Source of the DNA: a methanogenic archaeon
GTDB lineage: Archaea; Thermoplasmatota; Thermoplasmata; Methanomassiliicoccales; Methanomethylophilaceae
Reading direction: 5' to 3'
DNA length: 56,414 nt
Assembly: GCA_902763685.1 (NCBI GenBank)
Contig: CACWTF010000004.1
Location: forward strand, 1-56,414
Shown here in pieces: positions 8,071 to 26,838 of this stretch. Positions within the stretch are counted from its first letter, which is position 1. Every line of letters begins with the position of its first letter. Below the pieces are notes generated by a model. The model searched no databases. It was given only the letters and a program-made list of their open reading frames with translations, and was not told where the DNA came from. The position numbers and the translations under genes were made by a program.

Positions 8071-9828
8071 ATGCTTCTAAAAGCCCAGTCCGTCTCCAAA
8101 TCGTTCGGTCCCATGAAAGTCCTCGAGGACGTCAGTCTGCAGATCAACGAGGGGGACCGCATCGGACTGGTGGGATCCAACGGTGCCGGGAAATCCACCT
8201 TCCTCAAGATCCTCCTCGGGGAGGAGAAGGAGGATACGGGGGAGATCACCCGCAGGACCGAGAAGATCGGATACATGCAGCAGTTCGTGGACATCCCCGA
8301 GGACATGACCGTCCGCCAGGTTCTGGAGGCCTCGTTCTCCTACGCGGAACACATCAAGGTCCGCATGCAGGAGATCGACGACCTGTACAGCAGCGGAGGG
8401 GACATCGACTGGAACGCCCTGGCCGAGGAGCAGGGGGAGCTGGAGAACAAGCTGGAGACATTCAACAGGGAGATCGGCGGCAAGCTCCTGGACATACTTA
8501 AACAGGTGAACTTCCCCGAGGACTATCTCGACAGGGAGATGGGTTCGCTCTCCGGAGGCGAGAAATCCAAGGTCATGATGGCAAGGACCGTCGTGCAGGT
8601 CACCGACTGCGACGTCATATTCATGGACGAACCCACCTCGCATCTCGATATCAGCACCATCGAATGGATGGAGAGGCTGATCCTCTCCTCCGGCTGTGCG
8701 GTGGTGATCGTATCCCACGACAGGTACTTCCTCGACAGGATCGCCCTCAGGGTACTGGAGATCGAGAACGGGAAATCAACTGAGTACCGCGGGAACTACT
8801 CCGCCTACGTGGAGAAGAAGAACATCGCCCTCGAACGCCAGATGAAGGAGTACGAGAGGTATGCGGATGCCAAGAAGAAGCAGGACGCACTCATCGAAGC
8901 GATGTTCCATGACGCCCGCAGATATATGGGAACCTACAAGACCCGTCTCATGATGGCCTCCAAACTCGAGGAGAAGGAAAGGCCGGACGAGCAGAAGGAG
9001 ATCAACATCAGCATCAAGGCCGCCCAGAAATCGGGGAAGAACGTCCTCATCGCGGAGAACATGTCCATCGCCAGGGACGGGAGGACCATCCTCTCCGGGA
9101 TCAATCTCGACATACAGAAAGGTGACAAGGTGGGAATCTTCGGAGCCAACGGAGCCGGCAAATCCACGCTCCTCAAGGCCATCCTGGGGGAACTGCCGGT
9201 CACCGGGGAACTGTGGGTGGCTCCCGGAGCCAAGATCGGGTACTATTCGCAGCAGCACGAAGGACTTGACCTCAAACTCACCGCGGAGGAGCAGATGCTC
9301 CATGTCATCGGCCCTGACAAGAAGGCCGAGGCAAGGAACGCTCTGGCACAGTTCCTCCTGACCGGCGAGAACGTCACCAACAAGATGTCCTCACTGTCCG
9401 GCGGACAGAGGGCGAAGGTCGCACTGTGCATCATGATGCACGCGGAGACCAACCTACTTATCCTCGACGAGCCCACCAACTACGTGGACATCAACTCCAA
9501 GCACATGCTGGAGAAGGCCCTTGCGGAATACGACGGCGTCGTGATCACTGTCACCCACGACAGGTACTTCCTGGACAACGTGTGCAACAAGGTCATAGAG
9601 GTCGCGAACGGCAGAGCGGTATGCCACAACGGGAACTACAGCGACCTGAAGGGAGCACCGGAACCCGTGAAACAGGCCGAGAAAGGCCAGATGTACCGCG
9701 TAGTGGAACCGTTCACCAACTGGACCACCAGGAAGAAGTACGCCAAGGGCGACCGCGTGTCCATCACCCCCTCGGAGATGCCGGGATTCCAGGATGCACT
9801 GGACAAAGGGAAGATCCGCAAGTCGTAA
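8071..9828 (+). CDS. ABC-F family ATPase
   Basis: 585 residues with two complete ABC ATPase cassettes and no membrane segments. The first has Walker A GSNGAGKST (35-43), signature LSGGEKSK and Walker B DVIFMDEPTSHLD; the second has FGANGAGKST (about 355), signature LSGGQRAK and LLILDEPTNYVD. The linker (about 235-300) is the charged helical hairpin typical of ABC-F proteins that act in the ribosomal E site. A C-terminal extension of about 60 residues follows the second cassette. A TATA-like ATTATTAAC (8039-8047) lies 28 bp before ATG, implying a leaderless mRNA. The likely role is translation or stress ATPase. Confidence 0.9.
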   Translation: MLLKAQSVSKSFGPMKVLEDVSLQINEGDRIGLVGSNGAGKSTFLKILLGEEKEDTGEITRRTEKIGYMQQFVDIPEDMTVRQVLEASFSYAEHIKVRMQEIDDLYSSGGDIDWNALAEEQGELENKLETFNREIGGKLLDILKQVNFPEDYLDREMGSLSGGEKSKVMMARTVVQVTDCDVIFMDEPTSHLDISTIEWMERLILSSGCAVVIVSHDRYFLDRIALRVLEIENGKSTEYRGNYSAYVEKKNIALERQMKEYERYADAKKKQDALIEAMFHDARRYMGTYKTRLMMASKLEEKERPDEQKEINISIKAAQKSGKNVLIAENMSIARDGRTILSGINLDIQKGDKVGIFGANGAGKSTLLKAILGELPVTGELWVAPGAKIGYYSQQHEGLDLKLTAEEQMLHVIGPDKKAEARNALAQFLLTGENVTNKMSSLSGGQRAKVALCIMMHAETNLLILDEPTNYVDINSKHMLEKALAEYDGVVITVTHDRYFLDNVCNKVIEVANGRAVCHNGNYSDLKGAPEPVKQAEKGQMYRVVEPFTNWTTRKKYAKGDRVSITPSEMPGFQDALDKGKIRKS

Positions 9829-17911: not shown

Positions 17912-18055
17912 TCATTTCTTCTTCATTTTCTTCTGCAGCTTCTCGAGCTTCCTCTTGGCCTCGGGATCGCCTGCGTCAGCCTTCTTCTGAAGTTCCGCAG
18001 CTTCGGCTTTGTCCTGCTGGGCCTTCTTGGTCAGCTGTTTCTTGCTCATGGGCAT
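17912..18055 (-). CDS. Small Lys-rich coiled-coil protein
   Basis: 47 residues, MPMSKKQLTKKAQQDKAEAA..., ending KLEKLQKKMKKK; an internal ATG at 18049 would give 45 residues. It is almost wholly helical and very basic, with DAGDPEAKRKLEKL resembling the start of a Sel1-type helix pair. It is followed at once by an intrinsic terminator. Possibly a nucleic-acid or ribosome-associated small protein; no family recognised. Confidence 0.6.
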   Translation of the reverse strand: MPMSKKQLTKKAQQDKAEAAELQKKADAGDPEAKRKLEKLQKKMKKK

Positions 18056-18195: not shown

Positions 18196-20406
18196 ATGCA
18201 TCACGCACCCGCGGACCACGGATTGTTACATGTTCCAGCGTCCGCTTTCCCCGGGACCGGGGAGGTGTTCTGAACGGACAAGTTCGAATCGCAGAGGAGG
18301 AAATTCGCCGACGAGATTGACGAATACTCCGGCCGCGAACCCTCCAAATGCAAGAGCGTGGGCATCACCCTCAAGTATCCGACCTACTCGGACCTCACCC
18401 CCGATCAGCTCAACTACTACACATATTGGAAGAACACACTCGGAACGAACGAGTTCAGGAAGGCCGCCGACGGGTACGTTTGGCTGTTCGTCTGCGAACT
18501 CCTCAACGATCCCGATACCGGATACGTCTCGGAGAGGCTCAACACCTTAGCAACGAGCGAGGCCTCCGACGGCTCCCCGCATTATCCCGAACTGTTAGGC
18601 ACCGCCGTCACCTACGCTACGGTCCGCGGTACCCCGTTCCCCCGTTATGCCGGATGGATGTACTCCCCCGAGAGGAGGTTCGTACTCTCCCCTCTGCTCG
18701 CATCCCCCGTATCGGACATCCCCGCTTCGGTCCTGCAGGACCTGGCGGGAGCGGCCGGCCCTGTCCTGAAGGATCCCGAACTGCCTGCGAAGACCGGCAG
18801 CATGCTCAGGGAACTCGACCGCAAGCTTTCGACCATGGGCACCGACCTCCGCAGCGAGTTCATGGTGCCCGTCAAACAATCCTGCCGCCCCTTCCGCGAT
18901 TACGCCCTCGTCGACGAACCGGAACCCGTCGAGATGATCGTATGGGAACCGAAACCGACGGGGGAACTCGGCGATCTCCTCTCTGCGGTGATATCATTGA
19001 TATCGGGCGGAAAACCCGATCCCAAATTCAGATATGCGGAGGAACTCTCCAGGATATTCAAAAGGCTCTCCGCATCCGGCTTCGTCCCGGGAACGGAGGA
19101 TCCGCTCACGAAACCCGAGGTGTTCCACTGCCGTCGTCTCGGCACACCATGCGGGGCATTCGGTCCCTCCCGTCTCTGCGACCCTACAGTGCAGGCGAGA
19201 TCCGGGAAAAGCATCACCCTCGGGGAGATCCTCACCTTCGCCGATTCGAAACCCAAGATGCCGGAGCCCTTCGTCCTCTCGGGATGGGAGCACCCCGTCT
19301 ACAAGGACCTCTCCAAAGGGAGCTTCGCGTACTACGTCTACTGGAGGGACTGCTTCAGGAAGGGGAGGTACCTCGATACGGACAACGGTTACGTCAACCT
19401 CCTCCTGACCGAGATCATAAACACCGAGTCCCCGGACGACGCACGCCGGGATCTGGAGACCCTCCTCGGAGTATACGGGGACGGTTCGCAGAACCTCATA
19501 GCACTCACTCTGATGGACCACACCCTCTGCAACCGGGGGAGGTTTACCGACTACAGATCATACGACGACAGGATGGTCACCAACTGCTGGATCGATGCCT
19601 TCCTGCACGGCGACCCCTCGCTCGAACTCGACCAGACCATGCTCGACAGGATGCGTTCGGGTTCGTTCAGCGTCACGTACATGGAATCCGCCGTCCCCCT
19701 GAGACCGTTCGGGAAGGCTTTGAGGAAGATCTTTGCCGAGATATCGAAGAAGAAGGATCTCAGAGCACTGCTGAATCCCCGTCCGGTATCCGCCGTACGC
19801 AGCGTGTACGTCTCCCTCGATTATTTCAGAGGGAAACGCGAGGTGAGGGTGGAATTCGACGACTATCTCGGATGCAGGAAGCTCAGCACCTTCATCGACA
19901 AGGCGGTGAAGTTCGCTTCCGCATATGCGAAGAACGGCAGCGGTCCCGCGTTCAGCTTCGCCGGGCTGAAGTGCTGCGATATCATCGCCGGATGCATCGA
20001 CGAGGACAGGATATCGGGACGGCGGGATGTACACATCAGACTGGACCCCGAGGCCGTGGCGGCCGCGGAATCCGATCTCAGGGCGGTCACCGAACTCATG
20101 AGGACCGAGGAGGAACCCGAAGAGACCCAGGTCACGGAAGAGACTCCCGTGCAGGAGACCGTCACAGCAAGCGGACCGTGGGAGATGTTCTTCGCCTCCC
20201 TCACCGGGACAGAGAAGGAATACATCAAAATCATAAGCAGGGAGCCGGCCGGTGCATCCGCCTTCCTGCGTTCGCATTCGCTCACCCGCATCGGTATGGA
20301 GGATGCGATCAACAACAAGGCCCTCGACACCGTGGGCGATACCGTCCTGGAGGACGGAACGGTGGTAGAGGATTACGTCGAAGACATGAAGAAGGGATTG
20401 GAATGA
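18196..20406 (+). CDS. TerB-N/TerB-C domain protein, interrupted by an in-frame TGA
   Basis: From ATG 18196 the frame reads 25 codons (ending GTGEVF), meets TGA at 18271-18273, then continues open to 20406. The bases just after the TGA (TDKFESQRRKFADEID) align with the F-x2-Q-x-k-m-e-d helix that opens TerB-N domains, so the domain begins before the only downstream candidate start (GTG 18358, 682 residues). Two TerB-N-like units are visible: PTYSDLTPDQLNYYTYWK (about 20 codons after that GTG) and HPVYKDLSKGSFAYYVYWR (near residue 315). The C-terminal 60 residues (EDAINNKALDTVGDTVLED) match TerB-C. TerB-N/C proteins accompany ATPases and helicases in predicted DNA-processing systems; here the ATPase follows with an ATGA overlap. 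The TGA may be a nonsense mutation of a Trp codon or a sequence error. Confidence 0.75.
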
Positions 20407-21686
20407 CCGAGAAGATACCGAAAAGGACGCTGAACACCCTGATGAACGCGATATCGTCTGGCGTGGTACCCCGCAGGGGATTGGAGTACATCGCGGTGGG
20501 AAGGAAGAAGGAGACCGAGACGTTCGTCGCCGATCTCGAGGAGACCGCCGAGGGAGGAGGGGTCTTCAGGTTCATCTCCGGCCGCTTCGGTAACGGTAAG
20601 AGCTTCATGACCCAGATGGTCAGGAATTATGCCATGGACCGGAACTTCGTGGTCATGGATGCCGACCTTGCGGTGAACCGCAGGCTCATCGGTTCCCGCG
20701 GCGAGGGACTCTCCACCTACCGCGAACTGCTGAAGAACACCGCCTACCGGGCACGTCCCGAGGGCGGGGCGTTGGAACCCATCCTGCAGGAATGGGCAGA
20801 GAGGATCCTGGCGGACATCGGTACCGACCGGGATTCCGTCACCTACGAGGCCGTCCTCTCGAAGGTGAGGAACGCCGCATCCGGACTCTCCAATCTCCAG
20901 CACTCCCATGATTTCCTTATCGCAATCGCCCGCTACCTCTCCGATTACCTGAAGGATGCGGAAGATTCCTCCGCCCTCAGATGGCTGAAGGGGGAATACG
21001 ATCTCAAATCCCAGGCCAGGAAGGACATCGGCATCAACACCCTGGTCACCGACGATAACTGGTACGACATAATCAAGCTCTGGGCCAGACTTTTCGCGGT
21101 CATCGGATACAAGGGACTCATCGTGTTCCTGGACGAGGCGGTGGTGCTGTACAAACTGTCAAGCAAGGTCTCCCGTTCCAAGAACTACGAACGCCTGCTG
21201 ACCATGCTCAACGACATCATGCAGGGCAAGTCCACGTACCTTTCCATGTACGTCTGCGGAACGCCGGAATTCATCCAGGATCCCAACCGCGGACTCTACA
21301 GCTACGAGGCCCTCAGGTCACGCCTGGTCTCCGGACGTTTCGAGAACGGTTTCGACAACTATCTGGGGCCGGTGATCAACCTGCGTCCCCTCTCCAACGA
21401 GGAGATCTTCGTCCTCCTGAAGACCATCCGCGACCTGCACGAGCAGAAGTACGGTTACGAATCCGAGGTGGACGATGCCAAACTGGAGGTGTATCTGAAG
21501 AAGGTGCTCACAGGTAACGTATCATCCTCCCTCGTCACCCCCAGGGAGATCACCAGGGACCTCATAAGTCTGCTCGACACGCTCCACCAGAACCCCCAGG
21601 CCAGATTCGCCAAGCTGGTGGAGAGCAGGTCGGTGGATGCCGACCGCGACCCCGACAACGATATCATCGAGGATCTAGACGTATGA
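20403..21686 (+). CDS. BrxD-like ATPase (DUF2791 family)
   Basis: 427 residues. The opening (ISSGVVPRRGLEYIAVGRKKE, about 17-37) and FRFISGRFGNGKSFM (55-69; G60-x4-GKS) are typical of the BrxC/BrxD P-loop family. Walker B is LIVFLDEA (239-246). C-terminal ITRDLISLLDTL fits the winged-helix part. In BREX type 2-like loci BrxD is encoded beside the helicase BrxHI, as here, but no BREX methylase, PglZ phosphatase or BrxC gene is present. It overlaps both neighbours by ATGA, so the three proteins are probably made in fixed ratio and form a complex. Confidence 0.85.
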   Translation: MTEKIPKRTLNTLMNAISSGVVPRRGLEYIAVGRKKETETFVADLEETAEGGGVFRFISGRFGNGKSFMTQMVRNYAMDRNFVVMDADLAVNRRLIGSRGEGLSTYRELLKNTAYRARPEGGALEPILQEWAERILADIGTDRDSVTYEAVLSKVRNAASGLSNLQHSHDFLIAIARYLSDYLKDAEDSSALRWLKGEYDLKSQARKDIGINTLVTDDNWYDIIKLWARLFAVIGYKGLIVFLDEAVVLYKLSSKVSRSKNYERLLTMLNDIMQGKSTYLSMYVCGTPEFIQDPNRGLYSYEALRSRLVSGRFENGFDNYLGPVINLRPLSNEEIFVLLKTIRDLHEQKYGYESEVDDAKLEVYLKKVLTGNVSSSLVTPREITRDLISLLDTLHQNPQARFAKLVESRSVDADRDPDNDIIEDLDV

Positions 21687-23821
21687 GCGACCTTTTCGCC
21701 GATCTGCCCTGGTTCCTCCAGGAGTATGTGCACAACAACCGGTGGACCTCCTTCAGGAACATACAGCTCGATACGTACGAGGCGTTCCTCAGGACCGAAG
21801 GGCACATCCTCATCTCCGCAGGCACCTCGAGCGGTAAGACGGAGGCCGCCATGTTCCCGATCATCGCATCGGTGTACGGACAGTCCCAGGAGGGTATTAC
21901 CGTACTATACGTGGGGCCGCTGAAGGCACTCATCGACGACCAGTTCGAGAGGATCGAACCCATCCTCCGCGACTCAGGTATCAAGATAACGGGATGGCAC
22001 GGCGACATCAGCCAATACAGGAAGAACAAGACGGTCAAAGACCCATCCGGCATACTCCAGATCACCCCCGAATCCCTTCAGAACATCGTCACCAACCGCA
22101 GGGACGACCTGCGGAGGCTGTTCGGTAATCTCAGATATGTGGTGATCGACGAGGTCCACGCATTCATGAACTCCGAGAGGGGACTGCAGCTGCTGTGCTG
22201 CCTCGAGGTCCTGGAAAGGATCGCGGGGTGCAGACCGAGACGTCTGGGTCTTTCAGCCACCATCTCCGATAAGGACTCCGCCCGCTCGTGGCTGTCGGCC
22301 AATACCGGGATGGATACCGAGGTGGTCAGCGACGACAGCATCGGCAGCAGGACCATCTGCATCCGCTACAACCTCTTTCCCTCGGACAAGGACGACGAGG
22401 ACAATTACAGACAGAAGGCGGTCACCAGGTACTACCGCGAACTGTACTCCGACATCTCGGGAAGGTCCTGTATCGTCTTCGCAAACAGCAGGGACTCCGC
22501 CGAGAAGACCGCACACGGCCTCTCCAAGATGGCCGAACTGGCCGGCCGCCCCGGCAACGTGTTCATCCACCACGGGAGCGTCTCCCGCGAGCTGAGGCAC
22601 AATGCGGAGGAGGCTCTCAAGAACCGCGAATCCAAGAACACGGTCGTATCCACCGTGACATTGGAATTAGGAATCGACATCGGCAACCTGGACCGCATCG
22701 TGCAGATCGGTCCCCCGTACACCTGCTCCAGCCTCGTGCAGAGGATGGGCCGTTCGGGAAGGAGGGGGGAGGCACAGAACCTGGTCCTCTACTGCAACGA
22801 CGACCTGACCCGCTACTGGACGGAGATCGACGGCATGTCCGTGGATCTCATCAGGAGCATCGCCATGACCGAACTGGTCCTGAAGGACAGATGGGTGGAA
22901 TCGCCCTCGGTCCGTACCCTCCCCTACGGTCTCCTCTACCACCAGACCCTGCAGTACCTCATACCCGGCACCGGGGCGAAGTTCGCCGAACTCGCGGATG
23001 AGGTGCTCTCGCTGTACCCGTTCAGGAACATCGGCAGGAACGATTACAAGACCCTTCTCAGGCATATGGTAAAAACAGGTCAGCTCGAAAGGATGGAGGA
23101 CGGCACCCTGCTCATAGGGGACAAGGGGGAACGCGTTGCTTTCAACAGGGAATTCTGCTCTGTGTTCTCGGCCGGGAAGGAATTCGACATCTCCTTCGAA
23201 GGGAAGATCATCGGTTCCGTCCAGGTGGTCCCCTCGGTCGGCACCCTCATACAGCTGGCGGGAAGGGTATGGGAGGTCACCGAACTGGAGGTGAAGGAAC
23301 ACCGTGCGAAGGTCATCGAATCCGACGGCACCGCCAACACCCCGTGGACCTCCGGCATCCCCGGCATCGACACCGCCGTTCTCAGGAAGATGAAGGAGGT
23401 GCTCATGAACTCCGTCGGTTACCCCTATCTCGACTCCGAGGCGAAGAAGTGTCTGGCCTTCTGCAGACAGCTGGGTTACGAACAGGAATGGACCAAGACC
23501 TTCGTGAAAAGGAGCGGCGGATTCCGCATCTACCCCTGGGTGGGTAGCAGGGAGTTCGATACCCTCAAAAGGGCTCTGCAGGCCATCCCCGATATCGATA
23601 AGATGAGGTGCAGGTCGCCGTACTACATCGACATCTCAACGGACCTCAGCGAGTCGCAGATCCGCTCTTGGGTGAACGACATTCTGGAGACGACCGACGG
23701 CAGGAACCTCGTGTCGGATACCGACGACCTGCAGATAGGAAAATATGACGAGTACGTCCCCGAATCCCTGCTGATAAAGCAGTTCCTCAGGGACGAACTC
23801 GATACTGATTTCGAGTGGTAA
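21683..23821 (+). CDS. BrxHI/Lhr-like superfamily 2 DEAD/DEAH helicase
   Basis: 712 residues. Motif I is SAGTSSGKTEAA (45-56), motif Ia GPLKALIDDQ, motif II DEVH (157-160), motif III LSAT (about 192), motif IV/V CIVFANSRDSAEKTA and TLELGIDIGNLD, motif VI QRMGRSGRRG. After the two RecA folds come about 330 residues with the winged-helix and beta-barrel regions seen in Lhr/BrxHI proteins. It is likely a 3'-5' DNA translocase. Last gene of the terB-brxD-brxHI-like operon, ending one base before the convergent gene. Confidence 0.88.
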   Translation: MSDLFADLPWFLQEYVHNNRWTSFRNIQLDTYEAFLRTEGHILISAGTSSGKTEAAMFPIIASVYGQSQEGITVLYVGPLKALIDDQFERIEPILRDSGIKITGWHGDISQYRKNKTVKDPSGILQITPESLQNIVTNRRDDLRRLFGNLRYVVIDEVHAFMNSERGLQLLCCLEVLERIAGCRPRRLGLSATISDKDSARSWLSANTGMDTEVVSDDSIGSRTICIRYNLFPSDKDDEDNYRQKAVTRYYRELYSDISGRSCIVFANSRDSAEKTAHGLSKMAELAGRPGNVFIHHGSVSRELRHNAEEALKNRESKNTVVSTVTLELGIDIGNLDRIVQIGPPYTCSSLVQRMGRSGRRGEAQNLVLYCNDDLTRYWTEIDGMSVDLIRSIAMTELVLKDRWVESPSVRTLPYGLLYHQTLQYLIPGTGAKFAELADEVLSLYPFRNIGRNDYKTLLRHMVKTGQLERMEDGTLLIGDKGERVAFNREFCSVFSAGKEFDISFEGKIIGSVQVVPSVGTLIQLAGRVWEVTELEVKEHRAKVIESDGTANTPWTSGIPGIDTAVLRKMKEVLMNSVGYPYLDSEAKKCLAFCRQLGYEQEWTKTFVKRSGGFRIYPWVGSREFDTLKRALQAIPDIDKMRCRSPYYIDISTDLSESQIRSWVNDILETTDGRNLVSDTDDLQIGKYDEYVPESLLIKQFLRDELDTDFEW

Positions 23822-24679
23822 TCATTCCATCTTAACGAAGATCTCGGCGAACTCGTCGACCTTGGCGTAGAGCACCTTGATGGTCCTCTTCCTGGAGATC
23901 TTGCCGCCCACGGAATTGATGGTGGCCTTGAGTCCTCCGACGAGGGTATCGAGACGGTCGCCGGGGTTGGAGAGACGGTACTCGGTGAGTGCGGCAATCT
24001 CTTCCTGGGACATGCTCTTGGCGACATCCCTGAGCTTGTTACAGAGGATGATGAAGAAATCATTGACGGACCTTATAAACACGGCTCCGTACTTGGGTCT
24101 GACGCGGCCCTTGTAGGGTCCGAGTTTGTGGTTGATGCACTTCTCCATGGCATACTGCCCGAACTTGGCGACCTCCTCGCACCTGTTGGCCGATTCGATG
24201 ATATCCGCGGAGAACCTGAGGTATCCCGCGATGGAATATGCCGCGCACAGATAGAGCAGGGTGACCTCCTCGGGACCTTCGGCCTCGTCGAGGTGCTCCT
24301 TGACGTAGTAGAAGATATCGTCGGCGAACATGGATCCGCGGATGTCGCTGCGGTGGAGACGTTCCGCTTCGTCCAGCTCGGCCAGGAGATGGGTGGGGAC
24401 GATCTTGCTGACGGCGATGTGCCCCTTCATGCAGGCGATTGTCTTATCAACGATGTCCTGGTGGAGTTTCGCATACAGCTGGGCATCGCCGTCGAAACGG
24501 ATGATGGCCTGCTTCCATTTGTCGATGGCATCGTACAGCCTGTTCTCGTCCATGTCTATGGCGGCCCTCTCCGCCCATGCGGTCCACACCGCATCGTCGG
24601 GAAGGGGCGGCCTCTCGTCGGCAACCGGGGGTGCCACGGACTTGGGCACATCATCTTTGGCTACTTTCAGGAATCCCAT
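23822..24679 (-). CDS. Helical hypothetical protein
   Basis: 285 residues, mainly alpha-helical and soluble, start ATG 24679. DENRLYDAIDKWKQAIIRF (about 44-62) looks like one TPR unit, and the rest (TLLYLCAAYSIAGYL, CEEVAKFGQYAMEKC) continues as helical pairs. A basic segment (GGKISRKRTIKVLYAK) is near the C-terminus. Only 8 bp separate it from the DEAD-box helicase gene upstream, so they are co-transcribed and may act together on RNA. Family not recognised. Confidence 0.7.
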   Translation of the reverse strand: MGFLKVAKDDVPKSVAPPVADERPPLPDDAVWTAWAERAAIDMDENRLYDAIDKWKQAIIRFDGDAQLYAKLHQDIVDKTIACMKGHIAVSKIVPTHLLAELDEAERLHRSDIRGSMFADDIFYYVKEHLDEAEGPEEVTLLYLCAAYSIAGYLRFSADIIESANRCEEVAKFGQYAMEKCINHKLGPYKGRVRPKYGAVFIRSVNDFFIILCNKLRDVAKSMSQEEIAALTEYRLSNPGDRLDTLVGGLKATINSVGGKISRKRTIKVLYAKVDEFAEIFVKME

Positions 24680-24687
24680 GTTATCAC

Positions 24688-26742
24688 TCAGTACTTGCCG
24701 CGGCGGCCTGTGCGGGGCTTATCGCGGTTGGAGGGATATCTCTTCTTGGGGGTATCGCGATTGGACGGATATCTCTTTGGTTTCTCGGACTCCTCCCTGC
24801 GGGGCCTGTCGCCGAAGTCCCTTGCGGGGTGTTCGCGGTCCCTGGGGCGGTCCCCGTAGTCCCTGCGGGGCCTTTCATCGCGATCCCTGCGGTCGGAATA
24901 CCTGGGCCTCTCCCCGTCATCGGAATCCCTGAAATCCCTGCGGACGTAATCCCTGTCGCCGAATCCCCTGCGGGGACGGTCTCCGTAACCGCGGCGGTCT
25001 CCGTAACCCCTGTCGCGGTATCCGCCCTCGCGGCGTCCGTATCCCCTGCCGGTCTTCCTCTCGTAACCGCGGCGGGGCGGCTGATGCTCCTCCTTCTCGG
25101 ACATGTCGTCGAATACCTCGAGCTCCTCGTCCTCCTGGGATTCGAGCCCCTCCTCGGCGGCTTCCTCGGCTTCTTTCTGGAGCCTCTTCTGATAGTTCTT
25201 GTAACGGTTCTCCCTGCGTCTGTCGAATCCCTCGGGATCCACCCTGGGGGACTGGAGGTCGGAATAGTTCTTCTCCTTGGCGGGAGCAGGTTTGATGCTT
25301 ACGGTCTTGCCTTCGAACTCGCATCCGTCGAGATTCTCGATGATGTAATCGACGTGGTCGAGGGAGACCTCCACGAAGGAACAGTCGTCCTTCAGGCCCA
25401 CTTTCCCAATGGCCTCGTCCTCCACGCCCGCACGCTGTTTGAGGAAGTCGGAGATGGCGGTGCGGTTGACGCCGTCGGCCTTGCCCAGACTGAGCTCCAG
25501 GGTGGCGAATCCCTCCCTCTCGCCCTCGCTCCTGTTCCTGCGATCGTTGTTCCTGTGCTTCTCGACCTTCATCTTCTTCTCCTTCCTGGCGGCCTGTTTC
25601 GGTATTGGTTCGTGGACTGCTTCTATGGGTTCGAGATCCTCCACGTCGATCTTCTCCATCTCGGTATCCGCTTCCTCCTCGCACATGCGGACGAGCTTCC
25701 TGTCGCGGGGGTTGACGATGGATACCGATATCCCTTCCTTCCCCGCCCTGCCGGTACGGCCGATCCTGTGCAGATAGGTCTCGGGATCGATGGGCAGGTC
25801 GAAGTTCACCACCAGGTCGACATCGGTGACGTCCAATCCCCTGGCGGCCACGTCGGTGGCGAGCAGGACCAGCAGGCGGTTGTCCCTGAAATCGCCGATG
25901 ACCCTCTCCCTGAGTTTCTGGGCCATGTCACCGTGGAGGGTGCCGACCTTGATGCCCTCGTCCTTGAGTTCCTGGTAGACGGTGTCGACCATCAGCTTGG
26001 TGGCGAAGAACACGATGGTCTTGGGGTTGCCCTTGGTGAGGAGCTCGTAGAGGATGTCCTTCTTCTCGTTCCTCTTGCAGGTGATGATGTACTGTTTGGT
26101 GAGTCCCGTGGTGGGGGTGTCGCCGGAGATGTCCACCTCGGCAGGATTGTCCAGCATCTCCTCCGCGAGCCTCCTGACCTCCCTGTCGAGGGTGGCGGAG
26201 AACAGCAGGGACTGGTGGACCTCGGGCACATTCTCCATTATGAAATCGATGTCGTCCTCGAAACCCATGTCCAGCATGCGGTCGGCCTCGTCGAAGACGA
26301 CCTCGCGGATCTGACTGAGATCGAGGGCTTCCCTCTCGATCATGTCCTTCAGCCTGCCGGGTGTTCCCACGATTATGTCCGCTCCGCGCCTGAGGGCGGT
26401 GATCTGCCTCTCTATGGGTGCTCCGCCGTAGACGGCCGTGCTCACGTGGCCTGAGAACTTTGAAAGCTTCCTGAGTTCGGTATCCACCTGCATGGCGAGT
26501 TCCCTGGTGGGGGTGATGACTATCGCGGAAGGGACCTTCTGGCCCTTGCCTATGCGGCTCATGACGATCATCGCGTATGCACCGGTCTTACCGGTCCCCG
26601 TCTGGGCCTTGGCGATGAGGTCGTTGCCCGCGATACCCACAGGTACTGCCTCGCATTGTATAGGGGTGGGTTCCTCCCATCCCATTTCGTTCATAGCGTC
26701 GATGAGTTTGGCGCTTATTCCAAGGTCCTCGAAAGAAGTCAT
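24688..26742 (-). CDS. DEAD-box RNA helicase with RRM-like and Arg/Gly-rich tail
   Basis: 684 residues from ATG 26742 (MTSFEDLGISAKLIDAMNEM, the standard Q-motif lead). Motifs: Q motif PTPIQ, I AQTGTGKT, Ia TPTRELA, II DEAD, III SAT, V ARGLDV, VI HRIGRTGRAG. A DbpA/CsdA-type RNA-binding domain lies at about 430-505 (VNRTAISDFLKQRAG, SFVEVSLDHVDYIIENLDG). The last 120 residues are low-complexity Arg/Gly/Asp/Tyr repeats (such as GYGDRRGYGDRPRRGFGDRD) and two RYPSNRD units. This fits a DeaD/CshA-like helicase in ribosome assembly or cold adaptation. A minus-strand TATA (GTTTAAATA, about 26810) precedes it. Confidence 0.93.
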   Translation of the reverse strand: MTSFEDLGISAKLIDAMNEMGWEEPTPIQCEAVPVGIAGNDLIAKAQTGTGKTGAYAMIVMSRIGKGQKVPSAIVITPTRELAMQVDTELRKLSKFSGHVSTAVYGGAPIERQITALRRGADIIVGTPGRLKDMIEREALDLSQIREVVFDEADRMLDMGFEDDIDFIMENVPEVHQSLLFSATLDREVRRLAEEMLDNPAEVDISGDTPTTGLTKQYIITCKRNEKKDILYELLTKGNPKTIVFFATKLMVDTVYQELKDEGIKVGTLHGDMAQKLRERVIGDFRDNRLLVLLATDVAARGLDVTDVDLVVNFDLPIDPETYLHRIGRTGRAGKEGISVSIVNPRDRKLVRMCEEEADTEMEKIDVEDLEPIEAVHEPIPKQAARKEKKMKVEKHRNNDRRNRSEGEREGFATLELSLGKADGVNRTAISDFLKQRAGVEDEAIGKVGLKDDCSFVEVSLDHVDYIIENLDGCEFEGKTVSIKPAPAKEKNYSDLQSPRVDPEGFDRRRENRYKNYQKRLQKEAEEAAEEGLESQEDEELEVFDDMSEKEEHQPPRRGYERKTGRGYGRREGGYRDRGYGDRRGYGDRPRRGFGDRDYVRRDFRDSDDGERPRYSDRRDRDERPRRDYGDRPRDREHPARDFGDRPRREESEKPKRYPSNRDTPKKRYPSNRDKPRTGRRGKY

Positions 26743-26838
26743 AAAGTTTTCAAATCCCAAACAGGCCTGAGGCACTGATGGGGGATGGTACTAATATCCC
26801 TATTTAAACGTGCGTACGCGCACGTCCCCTGGAAAGGA

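Follow-up and report, generated by a model that had tools for sequence, protein, structure and literature searches.

What is the three-gene operon that couples a TerB-domain protein to a BREX-related ATPase and helicase on the chromosome of a methanogenic archaeon of the Methanomethylophilaceae, and against what, if anything, is it directed? The window analyzed here, a stretch of 56,414 nucleotides, carries the genes on its + strand, joined by ATGA overlaps at 20403-20406 and 21683-21686, as a sequence-only reading of this DNA had noticed. The same reading had recognized a TerB_N/TerB_C protein followed by an ATPase/helicase pair related to that of BREX, and all three proteins indeed have Pfam matches: to TerB_N (7.8e-11) and TerB_C (2.2e-9), both above their cut-offs, in the first protein, to BrxC_BrxD (PF10923; 1.6e-131) in the ATPase, and to DEAD (6e-28) and Helicase_C (2.5e-18) in the helicase. 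None of the three frames, which together span 1,849 codons, is interrupted; their length, their homology to known families and their synteny in relatives put them far beyond what chance would produce (Table 1). The PADLOC profiles for SngA (4.8e-40), SngB (1.4e-147) and SngC (2.8e-200) match the products in the order of the Shango genes, and the similarity of the sequences makes it almost certain that the three genes form a chromosomal Shango (sngA-sngB-sngC) operon.

Table 1. Features of the Shango operon and of its insertion site, in window coordinates
Feature	Position	Strand	Size or detail	Basis
Left edge gene of the site, Lys-rich ORF, outside the system	17912..18055	-	47 aa	relatives with and without Shango
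Short leader ORF	18196..18273	+	25 aa; GGAGG ribosome site	in-frame TGA 18271-18273
Ribosome-binding-site-like GGGAGGTG	18260..18267	+	six bases before ACG 18274	sequence
sngA-like gene (TerB_N - TerB_N - TerB_C)	18274..20406	+	710 codons	Pfam, PADLOC, start alignment
sngB-like gene, BrxD-type AAA+ ATPase	20403..21686	+	427 aa	PF10923, PADLOC, motifs
sngC-like gene, BrxHI/Lhr-type SF2 helicase	21683..23821	+	712 aa	PADLOC, SF2 motifs, structure model
Right edge gene, protein without Pfam match, outside the system	23822..24679	-		homologues in 12/14 genomes of the genus
DbpA-like helicase after the right edge gene, outside the system	24688-26775			

The view that no function is established for such an operon is out of date. 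Shango, described by Millman 2022 (as cited in PMC10952713), has published anti-phage activity: a TerB-ATPase-helicase operon of Pseudomonas aeruginosa PA14 lowers the plating of many phages 10-100-fold when present in PAO1 (Johnson 2023; PMC10250203), and an earlier report of phage protection by Shango in E. coli is cited in the same paper. Surveys of Asgard archaea (PMC11291487) and of rumen microbiomes (PMC13356809) also include Shango in their counts. In our search of the literature, we came across no archaeal Shango with reported activity, no description of Shango in a host group of the Methanomethylophilaceae type, and neither biochemistry nor a mechanism of Shango. The window operon shares with the described system the order of its genes (TerB protein, BrxD-like ATPase, BrxHI-like helicase) and the match to all three profiles; it differs in having two TerB_N units in SngA, with 710 codons against a profile of 528 positions, in its archaeal host, in an ACG as first start codon, and in the presence of two sngA genes in some relatives. 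Thus, while Shango itself was already described, the locus represents a new architectural variant of it. The best overall explanation, which we consider probable, is an antiviral Shango operon of a family-specific subtype with two TerB_N units in its TerB protein; the evidence obtained here consists of homology, gene order, intact motifs, domain duplication, the pattern of divergence and an empty site. The rival explanations are, in descending order, a decaying Shango, a plasmid-directed system, a repair complex and a new BREX-derived system.

A departure from known Shango lies in SngA. A profile search of the window protein found two TerB_N units (iE 8.2e-28 and 1.5e-27) and one TerB_C (7.3e-30); when the two halves of the protein are compared, the best ungapped stretch reaches a score of 89, whereas 300 shuffles gave at most 59. 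In an AlphaFold2 model (pLDDT 80, pTM 0.62), helices and a beta hairpin follow one another in a similar order in both halves. Two units are found in most methanogen-family loci, with one unit in L099 and L101, and with the first unit interrupted by a stop codon in L096, L097 and L016. The bacterial loci with a detected TerB_N have a single unit (none was detected in an Aeromonas copy), as do the second archaeal lineage, of genomes G005 and G011, and the halophile and Mesorhizobium plasmid copies. PF05099, the central TerB domain named for Shango (PMC10952713), was not called in the window SngA, but neither was it in the other SngA proteins scanned, so that its absence does not set the window protein apart. 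Neither sequence nor fold comparison matched SngA to a solved structure, and thus no hidden nuclease was found in it. Tandem sngA genes occur in G008 and G012, both of the genus, and in L100, and in the SngA tree the window protein groups with the product of the second sngA of G008 and G012 (100/100).

Moreover, SngA has diverged much further than SngB and SngC in each lineage compared. Mean pairwise identities for SngA and SngB are 33 and 71% in the methanogens, 48 and 82% in Paenibacillus, and 38 and 72% in Clostridia, and SngA identity is the lower in 100% of the pairs of the three lineages. Such divergence is the pattern expected of a recognition subunit, although it may reflect relaxed constraint instead of an arms race. 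The doubled TerB_N of most methanogen-family SngA proteins, the tandem sngA genes and the much higher divergence of SngA are the features that appear to be new here. In L016 (7296-7298) and L096 (5889-5891) the first TerB_N unit of SngA has an in-frame TAG at an identical position, and reading through it restores the TerB_N match; since the genome of L016 (G028) encodes PylS, insertion of pyrrolysine at the TAG is possible. We can only tentatively suggest, with more doubt than confidence, a fuller picture of the subtype in Methanomethylophilaceae-type methanogens, in which the two-unit (tandem TerB_N) SngA would be a rapidly diversifying receptor, sngA would have undergone tandem duplication and loss, and an amber codon may insert pyrrolysine in the first TerB_N in two species. 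Separately, in L111, L116, L117, L122, L128, L130 and L146 the SngA ORF carries a large extension at its N-terminus and reaches about 1190-1500 aa; the four that were scanned (L122, L128, L130 and L146) have no Pfam match outside TerB_N/TerB_C.

The 5' end of the operon requires a correction. Position 18196 had been taken as its start, but the ATG there opens an ORF of 25 codons (MHHAPADHGLLHVPASAFPGTGEVF) that is closed by a TGA in the same frame (18271-18273) and is thereby cut off from the TerB gene, whose frame opens downstream of this stop. The ACG at 18274 stands six bases after GGGGAGGTG, and aligned relatives have an ATG at exactly this position (their SngA starts are MDKFSTQR in G004 and MDIFSGQR in G008). 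The first canonical start codon in the TerB frame is GTG 18358, so either ACG 18274 or GTG 18358 is the start of sngA, or the assembly is in error at this point. The leader ORF holds the position of the first sngA (A1) of G008 and G012, in a TTTCGGAGG context similar to that of G012 and with an abutting stop. The DNA similarity is marginal (a score of 48, with shuffles reaching at most 44), and G004 has a comparable short ORF at this position. The leader ORF is probably the scar of a deletion of the first sngA, or else it may encode a leader peptide.

These features could mean decay, and they count against the best explanation: following deletion of the first sngA, and with the second no longer starting at an ATG, the function of the system would be on its way out, as suggested by the ACG found in place of the relatives' ATG and by the leader ORF found in place of the first sngA. 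However, all 1,849 codons remain open, the ATPase and helicase motifs are intact, and a strong ribosome site is kept before the ACG. Moreover, a start at GTG 18358 would preserve both TerB_N motifs, and G004 likewise has a single sngA, yet retains an ATG start. Decay is therefore an unlikely account of the locus.

An active antiviral Shango, the explanation that we favor, agrees with the chromosomal context. Of the 14 genomes of the genus, 8 carry SngB: six belong to the two-unit type, and the other two are divergent. In the window genome (G000), G004, G008 and G012, Shango occupies the same chromosomal site, between the two edge genes of Table 1; the left edge ORF is 100% identical in G004 and 96% identical in G012, and the interval from edge to edge holds three extra genes in G004 and one in G008. 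The site is empty in G011 and G001, where the edge genes lie about 49-64 bp apart (L051 8502/8552; L052 257/322), and in G005 the place of Shango is taken by an SF1 helicase of about 700 aa, while G008 has this helicase and Shango together. Patchy presence, an empty site and another helicase at the site support a context of mobile defence. The sequence-only reading had held that a defensive role would be doubtful if conserved neighbours in other genomes were housekeeping genes only; this is not what is found, the site being empty or holding another helicase or Shango in relatives, although the wider window is mostly housekeeping (arginine biosynthesis, a PPDK-type enzyme, a prismane protein). 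An Rfam search around the operon gave no match, and no mobile-element ends were seen among the repeats around it. A further neighbour in the window, at 8071-9828, was considered as mad3 and rejected, the PADLOC hits being cross-hits of an ATPase with ABC-F-like architecture. The SF1 helicase of the variable site (L013:2762-4891; L047:9314-11323; L050:5504-7561) is partly like MkoA of Mokosh and is a candidate defence gene. In G009, Shango lies on another contig and is directly followed by two AbiLi-type ATPase genes (L015:3759-6224).

Whether a system of this type is directed mainly at plasmids or other mobile elements, and not at viruses, is a separate issue. In E. coli, Shango can occur beside ApsAB in antiplasmid islands of the Gao type (PMC11096173), and no archaeal virus target is known for the window operon. 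Co-location with ApsAB says nothing, however, about the target of Shango itself, and the published tests of bacterial Shango used phages (PMC10250203), making a mainly plasmid-directed role quite improbable.

The two enzymes of the operon keep their motifs. In SngB, which has no PDB relative by sequence, both Walker A (residues 59-67) and Walker B (residues 242-246) are intact, and the SF2 motifs of SngC are invariant across 22 members. A model of SngC (pLDDT 86.5) resembles Lhr (5v9x; Foldseek TM 0.72 over 800 columns) and then MrfA (TM about 0.6); WH_Lhr falls below its cut-off by sequence. The model suggests that SngC has an SF2 core with Lhr-like accessory domains. Lhr and MrfA are SF2 repair helicases, and this likeness of SngC, together with the housekeeping genes found further out, could be taken to indicate a complex for DNA repair or chromosome maintenance built on an Lhr-like helicase, with no part in defence. 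SngC differs from the repair helicases, nevertheless, in being operonic with SngA and SngB, in its patchy distribution in the genus and in an identity of only about 20%. The empty sites, the divergence of SngA and the action of the homologous system against phages (PMC10250203) also argue against a repair complex, as does the presence of the family on conjugative plasmids (542 of the 696 plasmid records of the SngB family); altogether, a repair complex is very improbable. Relatives of SngB are present in many bacteria, and none was found on phage records or viral contigs.

In the SngB tree, the methanogen lineage forms one clade (100/100) that adjoins the bacterial Shango of Paenibacillaceae (97/90), and the G005 and G011 copies fall inside a Clostridia-type clade. 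This second Shango of the genus, which has a single TerB_N and groups with Clostridia (L018:6383-11752; L019:1123-6501), represents a separate transfer, of bacterial type, into the same genus.

The likeness to BREX is real but does not make the operon a BREX system. The ATPase-helicase dyad is homologous to the BrxD-BrxHI pair of BREX type 2 (Pgl), through PF10923 and the BrxHI profile (3e-123), yet the PADLOC profiles of BREX are much weaker on these proteins (1e-44 for BrxD) than those of Shango, and SngB scores 150 bits against the BrxD equivalog NF033438, below its cut-off of 350. PglZ has no match in the whole genome, which is 94% complete (two control genomes were positive), and no BREX methylase/PglX, BrxC or PglW was seen among the 25 best families of a PADLOC scan of 26 neighbouring window proteins. 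It is because PglZ is missing from the genome and the equivalog cut-off is missed that the operon cannot be called BREX, and the earlier observation that no BREX core lies nearby holds. The proposal built upon it, with TerB in the place of the BREX core, is reasonable as an analogy, but with a known Shango no new system is needed: a stand-alone BREX-derived system distinct from Shango, suggested by BrxD/BrxHI-type homologues without that core, was rejected as scarcely credible, given that the three Shango profiles all outscore those of BREX by far and match in the expected gene order, and that SngB sits in its tree beside the bacterial Shango of Paenibacillaceae. TerB domains are likewise found in the defence systems Bunzi and Dionysus (PMC10952713; PMC12926258), which their descriptions set apart from Shango.

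How an antiviral Shango of this kind would work can be outlined with some reservation. Because its first domain is doubled and it evolves very fast, SngA is likely the virus-sensing part; it would act as a hypervariable sensor or adaptor, its TerB_N units recognizing some feature of the invading DNA or of its replication. The literature describes BrxD as an AAA+ ATPase of the ORC/Cdc6 type and proposes that it loads BrxHI (PMC12839542). Possibly, SngB, as an ORC/Cdc6-like ATPase of the BrxD kind, loads or activates SngC, and SngC, as an Lhr-like ssDNA translocase, moves on the foreign DNA, disrupting its replication or exposing it to host nucleases. Sensing, loading, target and outcome are all inferred, and the scheme as a whole, in which SngA senses, SngB loads and SngC translocates, may well prove wrong. 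In any event, the comparison points to SngA as a fast-evolving recognition subunit and to SngB and SngC as a conserved loader/translocase engine, and it adds gut-type methanogens to the hosts of Shango, where the sensor architecture is distinct and the insertion site has been mapped in its occupied and empty states. The operon encodes no nuclease. The surroundings of about 80 related loci were also compared, and the gene families that recur there, judged by sequence and position and not by annotation of each family, include no evident nuclease partner. In the halophile and Phaeobacter plasmid loci, metallophosphoesterase/SMC or DUF4297/ATPase/exonuclease genes lie downstream of Shango (L166:9736-13260; L171:9470-13248), and these are possible accessory nucleases of another branch of the system.
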